Below are positions 5,280-43,759 of a stretch of 64,000 nucleotides of DNA, piece after piece. The notes beneath the pieces are model-generated. The model was not told the origin of the DNA. It worked only from the letters and a program-made list of their open reading frames with translations, and did no database searches. The stretch comes from Chitinophaga pinensis. Its GTDB lineage: Bacteria > Bacteroidota > Bacteroidia > Flavobacteriales_D > Crocinitomicaceae. Location: NCBI GenBank assembly GCA_945863605.1, contig CAMAZP010000014.1, positions 1-64,000 of the forward strand, in the 5' to 3' direction. The translations under genes were made by a program, and so were the position numbers. Numbering within the stretch: position 1 is the stretch's first letter; every line of letters begins with the position of its first letter.

Positions 5280-5367
5280 GAAAAGTGATTAAATCAACTA
5301 TAATTAAGTCATTTTCAAATCAGCTTCAAAATTTGGAAAAGTCTTTTATTTGTAAATGAATATCCTT

Positions 5368-5512
5368 AACTAGAAAAAACATCGAAACTCCTTGTGCGTC
5401 AATAGAGAATCGTACAAAAACGTTTGTTCATTTTGGTTTTATTTAACTTGCAGATACCTGAAAAGATTTTAAGCAGCGGAAACGTTTCTCTAATTCTTTT
5501 CAGGTTTTTTTA
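5368..5512 (+). ncRNA. Putative small RNA gene / structured dispersed repeat, copy 1
   Basis: The core at 5414-5511 is identical to 13274-13371 at all but about two positions. It contains a TTTG, then 17 nt later TAACTTGC (near the TAnnTTTG -7 element), then an 11-bp perfect stem: ACCTGAAAAGA (5456-5466) with TCTTTTCAGGT (5495-5505), a 28-nt loop and a T-run to 5511. This layout predicts a ~55-60 nt transcript that is essentially one long hairpin ending in a terminator. Upstream flanks are far more diverged, so the core itself is conserved. It could instead be a repeat or terminator element; no protein is encoded. Confidence 0.5.
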
Positions 5513-5574
5513 TGCCTAAGAATTTGGGGTTGTTACTTCTTATTGACGAAAATTCATTTTTTTGGAAGTTTTTG

Positions 5575-5760
5575 TCAGTAGCGAAGAAATACCACGCCCC
5601 GACGAAAGCGAATAGCTTTGCGAACAAGTGCACACAGCCACAAGCTGTAAAAAGCGACCAAGGGAAGCTCTTTTGCTGTTTTTTTCGTGGCGTAATGCAA
5701 CTTGGAGCAAACTTGCAGCTTTAGGCGGTGTGCCCTGTTTGTGTGTTGAAAGGCGCCCAA
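5575..5760. repeat. GC-rich intergenic segment, possible mobile or palindromic element
   Basis: About half of the bases in 5581-5640 are G or C, well above the AT-rich background. Several short self-complementary pieces are visible, such as ACAGC/GCTGT and AAAGC/GCTTT. It ends directly at the 3' end of the AddB-like gene. I do not recognise the element, and only one copy is in this window. Confidence 0.35.
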
Positions 5761-5765
5761 AATAT

Positions 5766-8558
5766 CTAACAATAACTACAATATTTAGAATCGGGATTGT
5801 GTGAAATTACTTCTTCTGTTTCGTATAGTTCTGTGATGATATCCGTTACCAAATCCACTAAAGAATTACAGACGTCATCCGTTGTACCATCTTCAATGTT
5901 TAAATTGTAGTTGGCTTTTACGTCCACTAAAGAAATGATTTTTGCCTCCGCAGGAAAATGATTGAAACGTTCCTTGAAAAATAAACAATACAAGGCCAAT
6001 TGCACGGCGTGTTTACAGTTTTTAAATGACAAAATGGGAGTGTCAAGTTGTTTGAATTTCACATCTTTTTCCGTCACCTTCCCACTTTTGTAATCAATCA
6101 CTCGGTAGTTATTTCCTACTTTATCGATACGATCTACCAAACCACTGAAATGAATCAGCTTTTTTGTGCCATTTACCTCAATTTCAATCGATTTTGTCAA
6201 TTTCATTTCAAGCATAATGATGTCAATTGGCTCGCTGCTTTTGTTCACAAATTCTCGTTCTTCCAACAATAAATTGCGCGTTATTGCCATCGCCATTTCG
6301 TAGCTCAAGAGATTTTTTCCTTTCAAGAAAAGGGATTCATCGCCATTGAAATGCTTCATAAATTGCTTGTGAAGAATCTGTTTGTATTGACTAATCATCG
6401 TGTCGATTCCAGAAACGGATAAAGGCGGAGGTGTTGGTGTTTTCTTTGTTCCATCGGAAGTGTAGTGCGCATAAGGCGTATATAATTCCTCCAAGGTGTC
6501 GTGAATGAAAGTTCCAAAAGTGTTGGCTTCCAGTTCTTCCTCGACGTCTTGATCTTCGCCCAAATCAGCTAGGTAACGGTAATAGAAATCCAATGGACAA
6601 GCCAAATATTTATTCATCGCAGAAGCGGAAAGTGAACGTTCAAAAAAGGCATCTAATCGAGTAATAATTTCGGGCGTTTTTTGAATTTCGTTCAATGCTT
6701 GCATTTTTTCTTGTGGAAAAGGAACGTTGTAAAAATGGCGATTGATGTGAATTTTAGGGTTGGAACGCGTCAATTCTAATTCCAATTGGGTGATATAGCG
6801 ACTGGCTTCATTGCTTCCAATTTGCTCAATTGCAGTAGTATAAGTTAAAGTGAGTTTTTTACATTGGTTCAGTAAGCGGTAAAAATGATGCGCATAAATT
6901 CCTTGTTTGTCGCGCGTTGAAGGCAATTCCAAACCATAGCGCAAGTCCATCGGAATAATCGTTTTGATTGGGTTTGTGCTCGGTAATTTTCCTTCATTGA
7001 GACCAAGCACCATAATATTTTCAAAATCCAACAAGCGCGTTTCTAATAATCCCATTATTTGCAGACCATTGATGGGATTTCCGTGATAAGCAATGCTTTT
7101 TTTGTTCCAATGTTGAAAGAACAGCAATTTAAAACTGCGCAAATTGAAGTAAGGAATGTTTTCGCTCAAAATCTGTTGAAATCCAACGAGCGCTTCATCA
7201 AAAATCGCTAAAATGTTGCGTTCAAAAGCGGCGGTTGAAGGCATCAAATTCAAAAGTAAGGTGTTGATTTTACGCACACAATCCATTGCAAGCTGCCAAT
7301 CATTTTTCCAATCGGTATTCATCAGCTCCAACAATTCCATCACTTTTGCATCCAAGGGAAGATTGGCAACATTTTGAAAGATTTTATTCTTGCGAATCGT
7401 TTCTTGCTCCACATTAATCAATGCTTGTTTTTCCTTTAGTCCAAATGCAGAAATTGTAAATACGTGATTGATAATTCGCTGCAGGTCTTTGTGATAGATT
7501 GCTTGCGTTTTGAATCGACCTTTGTTTTCTTGAATTTCAAATAATAATTCAACCCACGTTTTGACAGGTGTTTGATTCAGAGGTAAACCCAAGGTAATGT
7601 TTGCTTTACCAACATTCGCTGGAATATTTTTCACCATCGAACTAATCAAACTTTCGTCAGCCAATAAAATCAAGGTTTTGTTAATTTCTTCTTGACTTAG
7701 TTTCGCGAGTTCAGTTGCCGCTACTTTTACTTGTCCGGTATGTTGCGCACATTCTACAATGTCAATCGCTAATTCTTTTTCCAATAACTCGTTTTGAACG
7801 AATGTAGGTTTTTGAATTTCAAGCGTTTGAAGATTTTTACGTATAAATGTTCCTGCTTCGTGTGCTTGATTTTTAAAGTAGAAATCATCGACATCAACAA
7901 TATAATCAGCTTGTTTCAGGTTTTTTAATTTTTTAATGATTGTCAATTCCGAAGTTGAAAGCGCATTGAAACCTGCAAAAATGAAGTGTTTTCCTTCTCT
8001 ATCTTTAATTAAATCGATGTCTTCAGCTATTTTTCGATAAGCCAAAGCAGAAGTAATGTAATCGTTTGCCCGCACTTTTAGATGCAAACCTTCATAATAA
8101 ACAGGAATTCTATCCCAAAACTCCATAAATTTTTGCTGTGAAACCGATAATTTATCATCGTCGATATTCCAACTTTCTAATTCTTTGATAGCTTTTAGAT
8201 TTTTGAAAACCTGCGCGTGGTCGAGCATATAGCGGTCAATGTCTTCAAAATCGCTCAATAACATCGTCCCCCAAGTCAGAAAATCTTCAAATGTCGCCTC
8301 TTTACCTTCAGGCGTTTTTTGGTAAATTTCAAAAAGGTAAAGCAACAAACGTGTTTTGTCAATGATTGGCAGTGAATAGCGTTTTACCCAGCGATCAATC
8401 GTCGTGATTTCAGGAGAAAAAATAGGTTTTTCATACACCGAAACAAGCGATTTTACGAGGTATTTTGACGCGCGTTCAGAAGGTAAAATGATTACTAATT
8501 TACGTAAATCAAAATCGTTTTCTTTGATAAAATGAGCAAGTCTATCGGTGAAATTCAT
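5766..8558 (-). CDS. PD-(D/E)XK nuclease family protein, AddB/RecB-like
   Basis: 930 residues. The N-terminal ~600 residues resemble the inactivated helicase part of AddB (LVIILPSERASKYL at the start). The C-terminal RecB-type nuclease has GTFIHDTLEELY, then LVDRIDK...RVIDYKSGK (catalytic DYK near 823) and QLALYCLFF. AddAB-type complexes resect double-strand breaks for recombination. AddB nucleases bind an Fe-S cluster through one Cys before the domain (here ACPLDFYY, ~650) and C-x2-C-xn-C at the end. Here the protein stops at CSYC, so the last expected Cys is missing. The helicase partner AddA is not adjacent. The stop lies six bases from the GC-rich segment. Confidence 0.85.
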   Translation of the reverse strand: MNFTDRLAHFIKENDFDLRKLVIILPSERASKYLVKSLVSVYEKPIFSPEITTIDRWVKRYSLPIIDKTRLLLYLFEIYQKTPEGKEATFEDFLTWGTMLLSDFEDIDRYMLDHAQVFKNLKAIKELESWNIDDDKLSVSQQKFMEFWDRIPVYYEGLHLKVRANDYITSALAYRKIAEDIDLIKDREGKHFIFAGFNALSTSELTIIKKLKNLKQADYIVDVDDFYFKNQAHEAGTFIRKNLQTLEIQKPTFVQNELLEKELAIDIVECAQHTGQVKVAATELAKLSQEEINKTLILLADESLISSMVKNIPANVGKANITLGLPLNQTPVKTWVELLFEIQENKGRFKTQAIYHKDLQRIINHVFTISAFGLKEKQALINVEQETIRKNKIFQNVANLPLDAKVMELLELMNTDWKNDWQLAMDCVRKINTLLLNLMPSTAAFERNILAIFDEALVGFQQILSENIPYFNLRSFKLLFFQHWNKKSIAYHGNPINGLQIMGLLETRLLDFENIMVLGLNEGKLPSTNPIKTIIPMDLRYGLELPSTRDKQGIYAHHFYRLLNQCKKLTLTYTTAIEQIGSNEASRYITQLELELTRSNPKIHINRHFYNVPFPQEKMQALNEIQKTPEIITRLDAFFERSLSASAMNKYLACPLDFYYRYLADLGEDQDVEEELEANTFGTFIHDTLEELYTPYAHYTSDGTKKTPTPPPLSVSGIDTMISQYKQILHKQFMKHFNGDESLFLKGKNLLSYEMAMAITRNLLLEEREFVNKSSEPIDIIMLEMKLTKSIEIEVNGTKKLIHFSGLVDRIDKVGNNYRVIDYKSGKVTEKDVKFKQLDTPILSFKNCKHAVQLALYCLFFKERFNHFPAEAKIISLVDVKANYNLNIEDGTTDDVCNSLVDLVTDIITELYETEEVISHNPDSKYCSYC

Positions 8559-8561
8559 AGT

Positions 8562-9689
8562 CTATTTTTGAGTTAAGAAGGTTAAATAACCAGTTCTATT
8601 GATGCTTTTGAAAAGTACTTTTGGGTAGTAAGCACCAAACAAAGGCGGATTTTTCATTTTTTTCTTTTTATCTAAAATAAAGCGATAAGCTGTTGTCTGG
8701 TTTTCTTGCAATTCAATGAAATCGATTTGTTGACGGGTATGACTTCTCCAGAAATAGTAGGCGAAATTTTTACCATTCATTTTGTTCCATTTAATGCGTT
8801 CTGCAATCAACCAATTTTTCCAAAGCGCATCCTCGTCCATACGCATCGATAAGGGATTAAAGTTATTGATGAGCGCGTTTCTAATTCCATTATCTGCGAA
8901 ATAAACGAAGTGTAGTTTTTTCAATTCGTATTTCTGTTCGGTGTGATAACTGGGTAATAAAAACAGAATATGTGCTTTTTGTAATAATTCAAGGTAGCGT
9001 TGAACTGTTTCATTATCTACACCAATTTTCTCTGCAATTTGATTGTAAGAAATCGCTTCTCCAACTAAATGTGCAGCTATTTGCAGTGTTCGCATTAAAG
9101 CCGCTTTTTTATTTACTCGATCTTCCACACCCAATTGTGTTGCGATGGTTTCATCTACGATTTTCAATAAAAGTTCGGCTGCATTTTCTGGGAAATCTGC
9201 AATCTGTGGGTAATTTCCAAAAATCAAACGGTGTTCTATTCGTTGGTCTTCACGTGCCATTCCATAGATTTGTGTCAACTCGTAGTAAGTCGGCGCAGGA
9301 AGATAATAGTCTAAACCTTCCCATTTCAAAGCTTCTTTTAATTCTTCAATTATTGGCGGTTCAAAGGCACAAGAAAGAATCACACTCGCTTTTATATTTT
9401 CTGAAAGCACTTCATTTAGCACCTGTTGCAAGGACTCAAAAAGTTGTGCGTTTCCAATAACCACGAATTGAAATTGATTAAAATACCAACGCATTTCCTC
9501 TTCGGTAAGTTGTGAGAATTTCTTGCGAATTTTTTTGTTTTTGAAGTCAACCACTTCATATTTCACGCCAAGCTGTTGTAAGCATTTTTCTGCGAAAGGC
9601 ATTTTCCCAACACTCTGTGGTCCTGAGAGTAGTATTATTTTATTTGTTTTTAATTGTTCTGTAAAGTTAGACTCAATAATGCGTTGCAT
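8562..9689 (-). CDS. DUF4143-type AAA ATPase-like protein with degenerate nucleotide site
   Basis: 375 residues with the layout of the AAA_14/DUF4143 family: an N-terminal P-loop ATPase, a winged-helix segment near residue 215 (SYNQIAEKIGVDNETVQRYL), then a DUF4143 C-terminal domain with FWRSHTRQQIDFIE, a PD-(D/E)XK-like strand. Walker A reads GPQSVGKMPF, with Met where Thr/Ser should be. The Walker B region reads VVIGNAQ where the family has V(I)DEAQ/IQ, so both acidic residues are lost. ATP hydrolysis is therefore doubtful. Family function is unknown. It ends 3 nt before the AddB-like gene, probably co-transcribed. Confidence 0.75.
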   Translation of the reverse strand: MQRIIESNFTEQLKTNKIILLSGPQSVGKMPFAEKCLQQLGVKYEVVDFKNKKIRKKFSQLTEEEMRWYFNQFQFVVIGNAQLFESLQQVLNEVLSENIKASVILSCAFEPPIIEELKEALKWEGLDYYLPAPTYYELTQIYGMAREDQRIEHRLIFGNYPQIADFPENAAELLLKIVDETIATQLGVEDRVNKKAALMRTLQIAAHLVGEAISYNQIAEKIGVDNETVQRYLELLQKAHILFLLPSYHTEQKYELKKLHFVYFADNGIRNALINNFNPLSMRMDEDALWKNWLIAERIKWNKMNGKNFAYYFWRSHTRQQIDFIELQENQTTAYRFILDKKKKMKNPPLFGAYYPKVLFKSINRTGYLTFLTQK

Positions 9690-9953
9690 GAAAAATTTTA
9701 TTTGAAAATTGATTTTAAAGTTACATTTTTTTTGATAATTAAAACTTTTAAAAAACGCGAGATTAAAATTTTATTTGCGAAATAGAATACAGATAAAGTA
9801 AATTTTTAATTTACACAACTTTATAAAATTTTATCTTTTGCTTATATATTTGCTTTTATTGAATTAAAAAAAGTTATTAAACATAACGCTTTCTTCTATC
9901 TAAATATCTGTCTTTCTTCGGGCTATTACTATCAGATTCTCAACTTCTATCCG

Positions 9954-9961
9954 TAATTTTG
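9954..9961 (+). promoter_or_regulatory. -7 promoter element of the YgiQ gene
   Basis: TAATTTTG matches TAnnTTTG and ends 4 nt before the ATG at 9966. Transcription would begin at or within a few bases of the start codon, giving a leaderless or nearly leaderless mRNA. Confidence 0.5.
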
Positions 9962-9965
9962 CACC

Positions 9966-11858
9966 ATGAATAACGAAAGACCATTATCCGACTGGTTACC
10001 TATGTCCTTGAAAGAGGCAGAAAAGCGTGGCTGGGAGGAATTTGATGTGATATTAATCTCTGGTGACGCCTATGTAGATCATCCAGCTTTCGGAACCGCT
10101 GTGGTTGGACGCATCATCGAGGATGAAGGTTTACGAATAGGAATTGTGGCGCAACCCAACTGGAAAGACGATTTGCGCGATTTCAAGAAATTGGGAAAAC
10201 CACGATTGTTTTTTGGCGTAACTGCTGGCTGCATGGATTCAATGGTCAATCATTATACAGCGAATAAACGTCTGCGTTCCACCGATGCATACTCACCAGG
10301 AGGAGAAGCTGGTTTCCGTCCTGATTATGCTACGATAGTTTACAGCACTATTTTAAAGGATTTATTTCCCGATGTGCCTGTACTTCTGGGTGGAATAGAA
10401 GCTTCATTGCGAAGAGTAACACATTACGATTACTGGAAAGACCAATTGATGCCATCTATTTTAGTCGATTCAAAAGCCGATTTATTGGTGTATGGCATGG
10501 GGGAACAACCCTTACGCGAATTGTTGCGATTATTGAAAAAAGGAGTGCCGTTTAATCAAGCTAAAACCTTAAAACAAGTTGCTTTTTTACAAGAAAAAGA
10601 ATTGGACTTACCCAAAAACAAAAATTGGGAAACGGTTGAATTAGCAAGTCACGAAGACTGTTTACAAGATAAAATTAAATACGCTGCCAACTTCAAAATC
10701 GTTGAAGTGGAATCCAATAAATGGGAAGCGAACCGCATTATTCAGCACGTTGGAAAGGAAACATTGGTCATCAATCCTCCTTATAAAACAATGACGGAAA
10801 ACGAGGTTGACAAATCGTTTGATTTGCCTTATACCCGCATGCCTCATCCCAAATACAAAAAGCGTGGTGCGATACCAGCGTATGATATGATCAAGTTTTC
10901 CATCAATATGCACCGAGGGTGTTTTGGTGGTTGTAGTTTCTGTACAATTTCAGCACATCAAGGAAAATTTATTGCCTCAAGAAGCGAAAAATCGATTTTA
11001 GCGGAGGTTGAGGAAGTGGTTAAACATCCAGAATTTAGAGGTTACATTTCTGATTTAGGTGGACCTTCAGCGAATATGTACAAAATGAAAGGGAAAGATG
11101 AAGCGATTTGTGCACGTTGTACTTCTCCAAGCTGCATTCATCCTGTTATTTGTAGTAATTTGGATACCTCTCATAAACCTTTGACAGAATTGTATCGCAA
11201 AGTGGACGCTAATCCGAAAGTGAAAAAAGCGTTTGTTGGCTCTGGAATTCGCTACGATTTATTGGTAGATGATTTCAATAAAAACAACGAAGACGGCAAC
11301 CACGACGAATACATTGAGCAAGTAATTACGCGTCACGTCAGTGGTAGATTGAAAGTGGCACCGGAACATACTTCTGATGCAACTTTACGAGTTATGCGCA
11401 AGCCGTCGTTTAAATATTTCCATAAATTCAAAGAGAAGTACGACAAAATATCTGAAAAACATGGTTTGAAACAACAATTGATACCTTACTTTATATCTTC
11501 TCATCCAGGTTGTGAGGAAGAAGATATGGCGAATTTAGCTGCGGAAACAAAAGATATGGGTTTTCAATTGGAACAAGTGCAAGATTTTACACCTACACCA
11601 ATGACGGTTGCAGAAGTGATATATTACACTGGCGTTCATCCTTACACCTTAAAACCAGTAAAAACTGTAAAAACCAAAGAAGAAAAACTGAATCAAAATC
11701 GTTTCTTTTTCTGGTACAAACGCGAAAATCAAGCGTGGATCAAGCAGCGATTGGAAAAAGCAAAACGTCCAGATTTGATCGAGAAACTGTTAGGCGAAGA
11801 AAAAACTAAATCTGAAAAGCAAATTCCTAGTTGGTTGGAAAACAGACGAAAAAGATAA
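9966..11858 (+). CDS. YgiQ family radical SAM protein
   Basis: 630 residues. The opening LSDWLPMSLKEAEKRGWEEFDVI and the GGIEASLRR motif are typical of the YgiQ (UPF0313) family. The radical SAM cluster motif is RGCFGGCSFCTISAHQGK (C-x3-C-x2-C). The C-terminal ~100 residues form the YgiQ-specific extension, with EQVQDFTPTPMT and YYTGVHPY, ending in a basic tail. The enzyme would reductively cleave SAM to generate a 5'-deoxyadenosyl radical; the substrate is unknown. It is transcribed alone, convergent with fabD. Length and motifs are complete. Confidence 0.93.
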   Translation: MNNERPLSDWLPMSLKEAEKRGWEEFDVILISGDAYVDHPAFGTAVVGRIIEDEGLRIGIVAQPNWKDDLRDFKKLGKPRLFFGVTAGCMDSMVNHYTANKRLRSTDAYSPGGEAGFRPDYATIVYSTILKDLFPDVPVLLGGIEASLRRVTHYDYWKDQLMPSILVDSKADLLVYGMGEQPLRELLRLLKKGVPFNQAKTLKQVAFLQEKELDLPKNKNWETVELASHEDCLQDKIKYAANFKIVEVESNKWEANRIIQHVGKETLVINPPYKTMTENEVDKSFDLPYTRMPHPKYKKRGAIPAYDMIKFSINMHRGCFGGCSFCTISAHQGKFIASRSEKSILAEVEEVVKHPEFRGYISDLGGPSANMYKMKGKDEAICARCTSPSCIHPVICSNLDTSHKPLTELYRKVDANPKVKKAFVGSGIRYDLLVDDFNKNNEDGNHDEYIEQVITRHVSGRLKVAPEHTSDATLRVMRKPSFKYFHKFKEKYDKISEKHGLKQQLIPYFISSHPGCEEEDMANLAAETKDMGFQLEQVQDFTPTPMTVAEVIYYTGVHPYTLKPVKTVKTKEEKLNQNRFFFWYKRENQAWIKQRLEKAKRPDLIEKLLGEEKTKSEKQIPSWLENRRKR

Positions 11859-11927
11859 ATCAAAATCAAAGATTCGATTAAATTCCACTAATTGTTGCTA
11901 TTATTTTTTGCTTCAATACTACCAACG

Positions 11928-12809
11928 TTATAACCCTGCGCTACTCGTCGGTAAATCTCTGTTCACTTTTTTGAATAAACCTTGCAATACTTTACCTGGT
12001 CCAACTTCAATTACTTCGGTACATCCATCAGCAAGCATATTTTGCATAATTTGAGTCCATTTTACAGCGCCTGTTAATTGAAGAACAAGATTTTCTTTAA
12101 TCACTGTTGGGTCAGAGACTGCTGCTGCATTGATATTTTGATAAACGGGACAAATCGGTGTAGAAAATTGCGTTGCTTCAATCGCTGCTGCTAATTCCTC
12201 GCGCGCTGGTTCCATTAAAGGAGAGTGAAAAGCACCACCAACAGGTAAAATTAAGGCACGTTTTGCTCCGGCTTCTAACAATCTTTTACATGCTTCTTCC
12301 ACTGCAGGAATAGCACCTGAAATCACTAATTGTCCTGGGCAGTTGTAATTTGCTGGTACAACAATTCCGTCAATTTCACTGCAAATTTTCTCGATTACTT
12401 CGTCTTCCAAATTCAATACAGCTGCCATTGTTGAAGGTTGTGCTTCACACGCTTTTTGCATTGCCATTGCGCGTTGGTAAACCAATTTCAAACCGTCTTC
12501 AAAACTCAATGTTTTATTTGCAACTAAAGCTGAAAATTCACCTAATGAATGTCCCGCCACCATATTTGGTTGAAAAGCATCACCTAAACAAGCGGCTAAA
12601 ATTGTTGAGTGTAAAAAGATAGCTGGTTGCGTTACTTTCGTTTGTTTCAACTCTTCATCCGTTCCTTCAAACATAATTTTCATAATGTCGAAACCAAGAA
12701 TTTCATTGGCTTTGTGGAAAAGTTCTTTTGCTAATTCAGAGTTTTCATATAAGTCTTTACCCATTCCTGAGAATTGAGCACCTTGACCAGGGAATACATA
12801 AGCTTTCAT
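11928..12809 (-). CDS. fabD: ACP S-malonyltransferase
   Basis: 293 residues. FPGQGAQFSGMGKDL opens the protein, the nucleophile elbow is GHSLGEF (~90), and AFHSPLM (~200) contains the catalytic His. It transfers malonyl from malonyl-CoA to acyl carrier protein in type II fatty acid synthesis. No other fab gene is adjacent and the gene appears monocistronic. A TACCTTTG -7 element lies 14 nt upstream of the ATG. The length is typical of FabD. Confidence 0.95.
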   Translation of the reverse strand: MKAYVFPGQGAQFSGMGKDLYENSELAKELFHKANEILGFDIMKIMFEGTDEELKQTKVTQPAIFLHSTILAACLGDAFQPNMVAGHSLGEFSALVANKTLSFEDGLKLVYQRAMAMQKACEAQPSTMAAVLNLEDEVIEKICSEIDGIVVPANYNCPGQLVISGAIPAVEEACKRLLEAGAKRALILPVGGAFHSPLMEPAREELAAAIEATQFSTPICPVYQNINAAAVSDPTVIKENLVLQLTGAVKWTQIMQNMLADGCTEVIEVGPGKVLQGLFKKVNRDLPTSSAGL

Positions 12810-12823
12810 AAAGGGATTTTTTA

Positions 12824-12831
12824 CAAAGGTA
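12824..12831 (-). promoter_or_regulatory. -7 promoter element of fabD
   Basis: The minus strand reads TACCTTTG, a match to TAnnTTTG, 14 nt upstream of the fabD start codon. No good -33 motif is visible. Confidence 0.4.
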
Positions 12832-12944
12832 AAATTATTTTAGTGAGTGAATTCTGACGCTAAATTAGAATTAGGTGCAAATCTCAGGTTGAGATTAATT
12901 TTCTTTTCTTTTTTTCTTGACAAAAAAAGAAACAAAAAAGTCAA

Positions 12945-13112
12945 GGCTTTGAATTTCTTTTTGTTCGCAATCTTAAACTCAAAAAAATATTTACAACTCG
13001 TAGCGAACAATTTTAACTCCTTTCTGAAACTGGATTTTGGCGGATGTTTTTACAAAAATCCTTAAAATTAACCAGTTTCAGTTCAGTAGCTAAAACCTAG
13101 AAATTCAAGGCC
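12945..13112. repeat. 168-bp dispersed element with inverted ends, copy A
   Basis: The ends GGCTTTGAATTTCT (12945-12958) and AGAAATTCAAGGCC (13099-13112) are inverted repeats with 13 of 14 bases matching. Inside, CTGAAACTGG (13024-13033) pairs perfectly with CCAGTTTCAG (13072-13081). A diverged copy of almost the same length lies at 23010-23176, with both pairings preserved. Similarity extends about 10-15 nt outside the ends (GTTCGCTAA on the right). No transposase is present. It is either a MITE-like element or a structured RNA. Confidence 0.55.
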
Positions 13113-13225
13113 GATTCAGTTCGCTAACGTTTGTTTTTTGGTTTCAGTTCTAATTATTTGTTTTGACTTTTTATTTAAGTAATTGGTATGAAAGCGTACA
13201 ATTAAACTTTTTTTTAAAATTTCTC

Positions 13226-13374
13226 AACTAAAAAAGCAACCTCGAGAAATCCATGTTCGTCAATGTAGTGTCGAACAAAAACGTTTGTTCTTTTTGGTTT
13301 TATTTAACTTGCAGATACCTGAAAAGATTTTAAGCAGCGGTAACGTTTCTCTAATTCTTTTCAGGTTTTTTTTT
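13226..13374 (+). ncRNA. Putative small RNA gene / structured dispersed repeat, copy 2
   Basis: The core at 13274-13371 is nearly identical to 5414-5511. The 11-bp perfect stem ACCTGAAAAGA (13317-13327) with TCTTTTCAGGT (13356-13366) is followed by a T-run of nine. The two differences from copy 1 fall in the spacer before the promoter-like TAACTTGC and in the loop, not in the stem. It sits ~110 nt after dispersed element copy A and ends ~30 nt before the stop of the convergent 147-residue gene, so it may also act as a plus-strand terminator. Confidence 0.5.
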
Positions 13375-42248: not shown

Positions 42249-42340
42249 ACCCCTAGCCCTGATGGTAGTGGAAATCCTTTATTGGTGTTTTTCACTACCA
42301 ATAAAGATTGCAACGGATAGCAGGAAATAGCTCCGAAAAA
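42249..42340 (+). repeat. Structured repeat or RNA element
   Basis: CTTTATTGGT (42277-42286) pairs perfectly with ACCAATAAAG (42297-42306). Outside it, AGC-CCTG (around 42255) can pair with CAGG...GCT near 42321, giving a two-tier stem with conserved-looking internal loops. Sequence of the TAGCCCTGAT...GGAAATAGCTCC type is, from memory, repeated in many Flavobacteriia genomes; I cannot verify this here. Orientation is arbitrary. Confidence 0.4.
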
Positions 42341-42519
42341 TTTAACTCATTCTGAACATCATAGAAAAGGAGGAAGAACACAATTTTCTATTTCATTTCT
42401 GAGACCCAAATAAAGAACCAAAACCATCAATGCAACTAAATCCATTTTTCCTTGTGATTTTTTATCGTTTAAATCCTTTCATTTTTTTGAATGACAAGCA
42501 ATTTTAGAATAATATCAAG

Positions 42520-42527
42520 TAACTTTG
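42520..42527 (+). promoter_or_regulatory. -7 promoter element of the TraB-family gene
   Basis: TAACTTTG ends 8 nt before the ATG at 42536, which decides that start over the in-frame ATG at 42491. Confidence 0.45.
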
Positions 42528-42535
42528 GGCAACTT

Positions 42536-43759
42536 ATGAAGCACGGCGTTTTATTTTTCCTATTAATCTTTTTTACGAATTGGTCACAAGCTCAAATTGT
42601 AAACCGTGAAAAAGAATTGTTGTGGGAAATTTCTGGAAATGGGCTAAAGGAAAAATCGTATCTCTTCGGAACGCTTCATTCTAACAATAAAGCCTTGTTC
42701 AATCTCGCAGATAGTTTATATGTTGCGCTTGAAAAAGTGAATATGATTGTACTCGAGACAGATATTTTTTCACTTTTTGAAGAATTAGATACTCGGAAAT
42801 CAACTTCCAATACCTTGTACGATAAAAACGGTTTACCCTACACTGCAAGCAACGAAGCATCGACCACTTACTTCGGTTCGGAAGACGGTATGCCTCAGTT
42901 TTTAGATGCTTATTTTCAGGAATATTGCTTCAACGCTGGTAAACGATTTTTAGCTTTAGAAACGATTAAAAATCAAATGGAACTCAGTCTTGATATTCCG
43001 ATTACGCAACGAAATTTGGTCAATACTCAATTTTCAAACTTCACACAAGAAAAGTTAATCGATTTGTATTTGCAAGGTGATATCAACGCAATTGATCGAT
43101 TTATGCGTGCAAATATGTCCACTCAAAAGGATTTGTACAGTAAACTGATTATCAAACGCAACATTGCAATGGCGAATAAAGTTGATTCTGTATTAAAATC
43201 CAAAACAAGTTTATTTTGTGCTGTTGGCACTGGACATTTAGCTGGATCAGAAGGAATTATCAACTTATTGCGTTCTAAAGGTTATCGTTTGCGTCCCGTT
43301 TTATGGACGATTTCAGAAATTGCGATTCCTGCGAAAAAATCAGTTAAATCGAAACGAAACTATGTCTTTAATGACGAAACATCTGGAATTATTGCCAATT
43401 TTCCCGGTCAACCTTTTTCGAAAAGAAGAGAAGACGGAAGTTTGCTTTTAAAATACTGTGATTTTGGTCAAGGAAATACCTACGAAGTAGAGGTTATACC
43501 TTATGATGAAAGTTTAAGTTTTGAGGAAATGGCCGCCATTTATATTGCAAGTCCGCCAAATTCACCTTACAGTCGCAAAACCCTAGATGATGGAACTGAG
43601 TTATTTGTAGGTTTATCCGACACCTATCCTGAAGGTTTGAGCTGGGTTCAAATTCAAATAAGTGAAGGCTATTTTGCAGTGATTAAAACCTATGGTGGCA
43701 ATAAATATATGCACTCTGACCGACCGAAGAAATTCTTTGAAAAGGTTTGGTTTGAGTAG
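42536..43759 (+). CDS. TraB/GumN family protein
   Basis: 407 residues from the ATG at 42536 (MKHGVLFFLLIFFTNWSQAQ, a signal peptide). The TraB/GumN domain follows: LLWEISGNGLKEKSYLFGTLHSNN, MIVLETDIF and later FCAVGTGHLAGSEGIINLL with the family's conserved GTxH and GxxHL histidines. The extra C-terminal ~120 residues are not part of the core domain. The family is metalloprotease-like (Tiki-related); activity here is unproven. Exported. Confidence 0.85.
   Translation: MKHGVLFFLLIFFTNWSQAQIVNREKELLWEISGNGLKEKSYLFGTLHSNNKALFNLADSLYVALEKVNMIVLETDIFSLFEELDTRKSTSNTLYDKNGLPYTASNEASTTYFGSEDGMPQFLDAYFQEYCFNAGKRFLALETIKNQMELSLDIPITQRNLVNTQFSNFTQEKLIDLYLQGDINAIDRFMRANMSTQKDLYSKLIIKRNIAMANKVDSVLKSKTSLFCAVGTGHLAGSEGIINLLRSKGYRLRPVLWTISEIAIPAKKSVKSKRNYVFNDETSGIIANFPGQPFSKRREDGSLLLKYCDFGQGNTYEVEVIPYDESLSFEEMAAIYIASPPNSPYSRKTLDDGTELFVGLSDTYPEGLSWVQIQISEGYFAVIKTYGGNKYMHSDRPKKFFEKVWFE

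Follow-up and report, generated by a model that had tools for sequence, protein, structure and literature searches.

MicA and RybB are sigma-E-dependent sRNAs, and promoters of the ECF class are marked by AAC at -35 together with CGTC at -10. To our knowledge, few sRNA regulons have been described in Bacteroidota, and we know of almost no sRNA in the envelope regulons of this phylum. In Fusobacterium, the sRNAs FoxI and FoxJ are under an ECF sigma factor, according to the part of the account consulted (PMC11005410). In Porphyromonas gingivalis, the ECF sigma factor SigP of the PorXY-SigP system is tied to T9SS genes, again according to the consulted part of the source (PMC4800418). Closer to the present locus, excerpts of a study of Flavobacterium psychrophilum (PMC9723704) describe the mapped promoter class SM5, with the motif TAnnTTGY, and the ECF-type motif SM6, with a conserved CGT box at -10. 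SM6 is listed there before T9SS genes and before Rfp11, a putative regulatory RNA that is named among the structured RNAs conserved in other species. Within the open-access literature searched, and in those portions of it that were consulted, the uncharacterised Rfp11 is the sole lead towards an ECF-promoter sRNA in Bacteroidota.

The element described here is, with good confidence, a predicted sRNA gene with an ECF-type promoter, and in related bacteria it is usually a single-copy gene. Like Rfp11, it is a putative sRNA under an ECF-type promoter motif alongside T9SS genes, a likeness drawn by promoter class only and from the excerpts cited above. With MicA, RybB, FoxI and FoxJ it would share a gene under an ECF sigma factor and a place in an envelope response as its noncoding arm, although those sRNAs belong to a different phylum and the likeness is by description. 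The SigP regulon offers the same tie between an ECF sigma factor and T9SS genes; however, the motif suggested for it does not resemble CAACC-N16-CGTC, and the consulted part of that account (PMC4800418) has no sRNA. Flavo-1 RNA (RF01705) is also a conserved flavobacterial RNA and lies in the same window, meaning the whole 64,000-nt stretch of DNA that was analysed, but its match is at 42251-42331 only and the element does not match RF01705. That Flavo-1 match (+ strand; 79.1 bits against a cut-off of 42) is located upstream of the ORF at 42491-43759.

Two copies of the element are present in the window. Their near-identity, reported by the initial annotation, is borne out: with the alignment in the correct register, 5414-5511 and 13275-13372 are identical except for 2 of 98 nt, the second coordinate having been given one position too low (13274-13371). 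Extending the comparison to the whole segment between CGTC and the T-run, 5397-5511 against 13258-13372, raises the number of differences to 7 in 115 nt. Positions 5413, 5430 and 5480 distinguish the copies. Outside this segment ungapped identity is 47% over 60 nt upstream and 37% over 60 nt downstream, and a gapped alignment allows the similarity to be traced ~45 nt further upstream. When up to 3 mismatches are allowed, a 26-nt probe matches nothing in the window but the two copies, with 0 expected. The initial annotation had also proposed searching the core against its own genome and against relatives. Whole-genome BLAST of the 3.09-Mb genome returns these two full copies and no third, the remaining matches being short with E values of 0.006 or worse, and BLAST matches are found in 44 of 100 genomes, the own genome counted. 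The coordinates of the predicted parts of both copies are collected in Table 1.

Table 1. Predicted features of the two copies and the nuclease gene next to copy 1 (window coordinates).
Feature	Position	Strand	Basis
-35 element GCAACC, ECF-type promoter, copy 2	13236..13241	+	CAAC(C) 15-16 bp before CGTC in 33/33 A6 loci
-10 element CGTC, copy 2	13258..13261	+	16 bp past the -35 element; same conservation
Predicted small RNA, copy 2	13268..13374	+	Start predicted ~6-8 nt past CGTC (+/-3); end in the T-run
5' stem-loop GAACAAA-AACG-TTTGTTC, copy 2	13273..13290	+	A6: 7/7 pairs change on both sides; A4: 5/7
Conserved stretch, putative pairing region, copy 2	13291..13314	+	CTTGCA at 13308-13313; CTTGCA in 33/33 sequences
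Intrinsic terminator, copy 2	13317..13374	+	11-bp stem 13317-13327/13356-13366 and T-run; A6: 98.0% of cells paired, 9/11 pairs change on both sides
-10 box, RNA part and terminator, copy 1	5397..5511	+	Alignment to copy 2
-35 region, copy 1, apparently altered by small deletions	about 5376-5388	+	No GCAAC at the right spacing
5' stem, copy 1	5412..5429	+	T5413 faces T5428, a broken pair
Terminator hairpin, copy 1 (the hairpin of the initial annotation)	5456..5511	+	-21.3 kcal/mol
PD-(D/E)XK nuclease gene ("AddB-like", our own label)	5766..8558	-	Pfam PF12705; convergent with copy 1

The two copies are not equally complete. Copy 2 contains the -35 and -10 elements, the 5' stem, the seed and the terminator, whereas copy 1 is without the -35 element and has a T-T mismatch in its 5' stem. 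Copy 1 adjoins the nuclease gene and copy 2 adjoins fabD, and two close relatives (L044 and L013) have one full copy between the nuclease gene and fabD. Because its parts are complete, because copy 1 is damaged, and because of the arrangement in these relatives, copy 2, which looks intact, is likely the working gene; copy 1 is probably a decayed duplicate with damage to its -35 box and 5' stem, and is probably silent. The direct copies flank a ~7.7-kb segment (5397-13374) that contains the nuclease gene, a DUF4143 ATPase gene, a radical-SAM-like gene (identified by eye) and fabD. The genes of this segment are ordered differently in close relatives, which suggests that the region was rearranged or, possibly, that the assembly is at fault.

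The hairpin that first drew attention to the locus, with its 11-bp stem, 28-nt loop and T-run, is present as described; in copy 1 its fold has a z-score of -5.5, and none of 200 shuffled sequences folds as well. This hairpin is the terminator, and sequence conservation is highest just ahead of it. The statement that the differences between the copies avoid the stem holds for the terminator hairpin; it fails for the 5' stem, a helix that the initial annotation had not seen and in which T5413 breaks a pair. The putative pairing stretch reads UGGUUUUAUUU..CUUGCA. The predicted RNA would thus be laid out as a 5' stem-loop, followed by an open stretch ending in CUUGCA and then by a Rho-independent terminator, with a predicted length of ~105 nt in this genome, against roughly 70-130 nt among relatives. 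The element is non-coding and free-standing and has its own intrinsic terminator, as is the case for sRNAs of the ECF-sigma-dependent kind.

Comparisons among relatives provide the evidence for this structure. Aligned loci show shared blocks consisting of GCAACC, 16 bp and CGTC, then an inverted repeat, a near-invariant stretch ending in CTTGCAG, and a terminator hairpin of changing sequence. RNAalifold returns no structure on the MAFFT alignment A1 (which omits L019, a locus cut by a contig end) because the arms are displaced by one column, a problem solved by covariance-model realignment. First, alignment A4, comprising 34 members realigned with the first covariance model R1 (matches with E <=0.001; copy 1, or L001, together with L013 and L042, deliberately left out), has 97.4% of its pair cells paired and 13 of 18 pairs that change on both sides; on four of five measures none of 500 shuffles equals it, whereas on the fifth, further pair types, 19 of 500 do. 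Second, alignment A6 of 33 members, 12 from the same genus and 21 from other genera, has 95.2% of cells paired and 16 of 18 pairs changing on both sides, with none of 500 shuffles as high on any of the five measures, although these covariation counts, like those for A4, lean towards the structure because the alignments were fitted to it. Third, two further lines of evidence agree with the structure: paired cells fall to 30-61% in slid controls, and most of the stems are found singly without the model. In the single-sequence stem search of 35 loci, the best stem is shorter or different in L001, L036, L051 and L061 and has only 4 pairs in L060. In A6 every pair of the 5' stem changes on both sides, although the innermost is unpaired in 13 of 27 cells. 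Covariance model R2 matches copy 2 at 13261-13372 with E = 3.2e-16, copy 2 itself being part of the model's alignment. The covariance model for which the initial annotation had called therefore exists, and both helices covary in A4 and A6.

CTTGCA is invariant across the A6 sequences. Over these 33 sequences the unpaired probability averages 0.75 at CUUGCA and 0.77 across the preceding 11 nt; the own copy 2 is predicted to be less open than most, with 0.44 and 0.63, respectively. The strongest constraint thus falls on a stretch that is predicted to be mostly unpaired. An open stretch that keeps its sequence, next to a 5' stem that keeps mainly its pairing, fits a base-pairing sRNA. A further motif, CTACC, recurs in the loops of the 5' stem or of the terminator in other genera (L154, L155, L162, L163, L269 and others) and is a possible second pairing site.

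Upstream of the RNA, CAAC(C)-N15/16-CGTC is found in all 33 A6 loci, the spacer (counted as CAACC-N-CGTC) being 16 bp in 28 and 15 bp in 5, and most positions between CAAC and CGTC vary. A conserved ECF-type promoter with fixed spacing directly upstream is a mark of ECF-sigma-dependent sRNA genes. Of 36 same-genus loci, 34 have GCAAC at this distance from CGTC (33 at 16 bp and one at 15; L063 gave no row in this count), and the two exceptions are the own copy 1 and one locus cut by a contig end. The evidence for the -10 element is not wholly independent of the model, because the first alignment was trimmed immediately past CGTC, whereas the -35 element always lay outside the model and is independent of it.

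The initial annotation had instead taken the TAACTTGC box as the promoter, with a transcript of 55-60 nt that starts just before the hairpin. An SM5 (TAnnTTGY) or sigma-A type promoter in this position, giving a 55-60 nt hairpin RNA, is improbable, even if somewhat less so than the alternatives that follow. The box in the own genome does fit SM5 as mapped in F. psychrophilum, according to the consulted part of PMC9723704, and 11 of 12 same-genus loci retain an SM5-like box; however, it occurs in 0 of 21 other-genus loci although CTTGCA stays, and a start there explains neither the covarying stem upstream nor the conserved CAAC-CGTC pair and would reduce the transcript in some relatives to a bare terminator of ~30 nt. 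The box is thus more readily placed inside the RNA, and the covarying 5' stem upstream of the proposed start argues for the length of ~105 nt. Because promoters of the TAnnTTGY class have been mapped in F. psychrophilum, a second, genus-specific start from the internal box is possible in addition to the ECF-type start.

The genomic neighbourhood bears on whether the element could be a cis element of an adjacent gene. In 30 of the 35 loci first scanned (among which the records L041 and L043 duplicate L012 and L013), relatives of the nuclease gene lie 3' of the RNA gene and opposed to it, and a ~120-aa gene often lies upstream; one of its members is without a Pfam match. Many loci place the RNA gene between these two genes, an arrangement that would suit an element belonging to the ~120-aa gene as its 3' UTR or its terminator, or one that works as a two-way terminator for the convergent nuclease gene. 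We regard both roles as very unlikely, since the element has its own promoter in 33 of 33 loci, its T-run is confined to one strand, and the nuclease gene is absent beside the own copy 2 and beside the element in G060 and G013. Furthermore, when 20 other-genus regions of up to 8 kb are searched by tblastn, one or both neighbours are found in 9 and neither in 11; with neighbours this variable, the RNA gene is not tied to them. The upstream ~120-aa protein is acidic and itself conserved (L067 6590-6949, L155, L165 and others), with 70-82% identity in 8 of the 20 other-genus regions.

About equally doubtful is a regulator-binding DNA palindrome (GAACAA...TTGTTC) at the promoter in place of an RNA stem. 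The 5' stem does double as a DNA inverted repeat, but it is positioned downstream of the -10 box and its sequence varies widely while pairing is kept; the G-U pairs that occur in it also favour RNA over a DNA palindrome. Least credible of all is a mobile repeat or integration site, such as a transposon end, REP-like element or att site: two direct copies surround the ~7.7-kb segment here, a PemK/MazF-like toxin gene with its small partner ORF is enclosed by one decayed and one full copy in G033 (L065, contig 21, 8224-9081), and a second, weaker copy is also present in L042 (1867-2722) and G117, but the element is single-copy in 72 of the 75 matching genus genomes, its structure is conserved beyond the genus, and the only duplications seen are those of G033, G117, record L042 and the own genome. 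Two copies in the own genome, against one in those 72, do not amount to the many copies of a dispersed repeat or transposon end.

A small ORF inside the RNA was considered and rejected, as TTG-started frames vary in length and some relatives read CTTGCAGTAA, with a stop two codons on. There is no conserved reading frame, which supports the earlier view of a small-RNA gene that would yield an RNA and not a protein. Recent duplication and strong selection had both been offered to explain the identity of the copies; a duplication and selection are both supported, the gene being found in at least 77 of 86 genus genomes with covariation in both helices. It is normally single-copy.

The distribution of the element was assessed at three levels. 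Within the genus, R2 finds it in 75 of 86 genomes and in 45 of the 50 of good quality, once per genome except for two copies each in G000, G033 and G117. Two genomes missed there, G036 and G007, have the promoter, seed and terminator by eye (R2 matches G036 in another search), which brings the total to the lower bound given above. In the order draw, 138 of 399 genomes and 12 of 70 genera match, which is no rate for the order because the draw is rich in same-genus and same-family genomes; the matches listed fall in the own genus and own family, plus two f10 genomes. In the class draw, 13 of 395 genomes match, of which two are judged to be chance and the others are in family f1 and, once, f8; model R3 gives no convincing match outside the own order in this draw. 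A pattern of promoter plus CTTGCA matches 143 of 398 genomes and adds two f3 genomes, an upper figure since some matches are seemingly coding (similar ones occur in f9, for example) and the reversed pattern is found in ~48 genomes. Members with promoter, seed and terminator recognisable by eye occur in families f10, f8 and f3, and the RNA gene is conserved in several families of one order, which is probably Flavobacteriales.

Several candidates were set aside. The two chance matches at class level, G524 and G627, are weak and are without CTTGCA and the promoter; the BLAST match in G093 is a 21-nt piece at the start of another gene; and the pattern match at L078 (G069 contig 45) has neither hairpin nor promoter. 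Two loci from genera g32 and g35 of the same family, L271 (G163) and L272 (G212), likely represent a variant of the RNA gene: promoter and CTTGCA are unchanged, and CTTGCA is preceded by a conserved hairpin that reads TTGAAGGGGTTCAA or nearly so. In Rfam 15, no family reaches its gathering score at the element, either in the window or in 18 loci with members; seven weak matches in 5300-5600, among them mir-722, TUG1_2 and CRISPR-DR65, score well below the respective cut-offs.

The promoter points to other genes that may share its control. The pattern RGCAAC-N17-CGTCWW has 35 matches in 12 genus genomes and its reversed form has 49, so there is no excess in number and only the position of the matches is unusual. 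Thirty matches have loci: 11 overlap ORFs, 10 correspond to the RNA gene, and the other 9 are intergenic, with a codirectional gene no more than 120 nt downstream. For the reversed control (32 rows with loci, 30 distinct sites), none is before a gene and all but two overlap ORFs. The nine downstream genes, which include orthologues (three sites of one gene and two of another), all encode signal-peptide-like protein starts, as judged by eye and not by a predictor. Ten proteins were scanned, six from the nine intergenic sites and four from other matches, and eight carry T9SS sorting domains (TIGR04183, TIGR04131, PF18962 or PF13585); L214 falls short of the NCBIfam type B cut-off but exceeds that of Pfam PF13585. 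Five of the 15 regions involved were left out: L217, L225, the open-ended L219 and L224, and L218, which is the RNA gene itself. In the own genome, CAACC-N16-CGTCWW finds just the RNA gene and one match inside an opposite-strand ORF, against 10 for the reversed control, and the T9SS link thus rests on the relatives.

On the target side, a 17-nt antisense search of six genomes gives no conserved target; 13 of 14 non-self loci have their match inside an ORF and none closely precedes a start. The seed shows no special pairing with the nine promoter-sharing mRNA starts, the lowest shuffled fraction being 0.04 among nine tests (mononucleotide shuffles).

An ECF-type sigma factor probably transcribes the RNA gene from CAAC(C)-N15/16-CGTC, and the RNA would then act in trans by base-pairing with mRNAs. 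Since related promoters precede T9SS cargo genes in the same genus, its most likely role would be that of a noncoding arm of an ECF/T9SS envelope regulon. A fuller proposal, which we advance tentatively and hold to be possible rather than probable, is that the element represents an old sRNA family, present in at least four families of the order, that serves as the noncoding arm of an ECF-sigma regulon controlling T9SS cargo and combines an invariant CUUGCA pairing site with a separate, freely evolving 5' stem.

The locus also illustrates that a one-genome reading can put the promoter inside the RNA, and that the likely anatomy is revealed by comparison with relatives. If the proposal is true, the RNA would be a functional counterpart of MicA and RybB in Bacteroidota. 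A conserved pairing site, together with an ECF-type promoter common to T9SS cargo genes, would offer a testable route into the balance of the secretion system.
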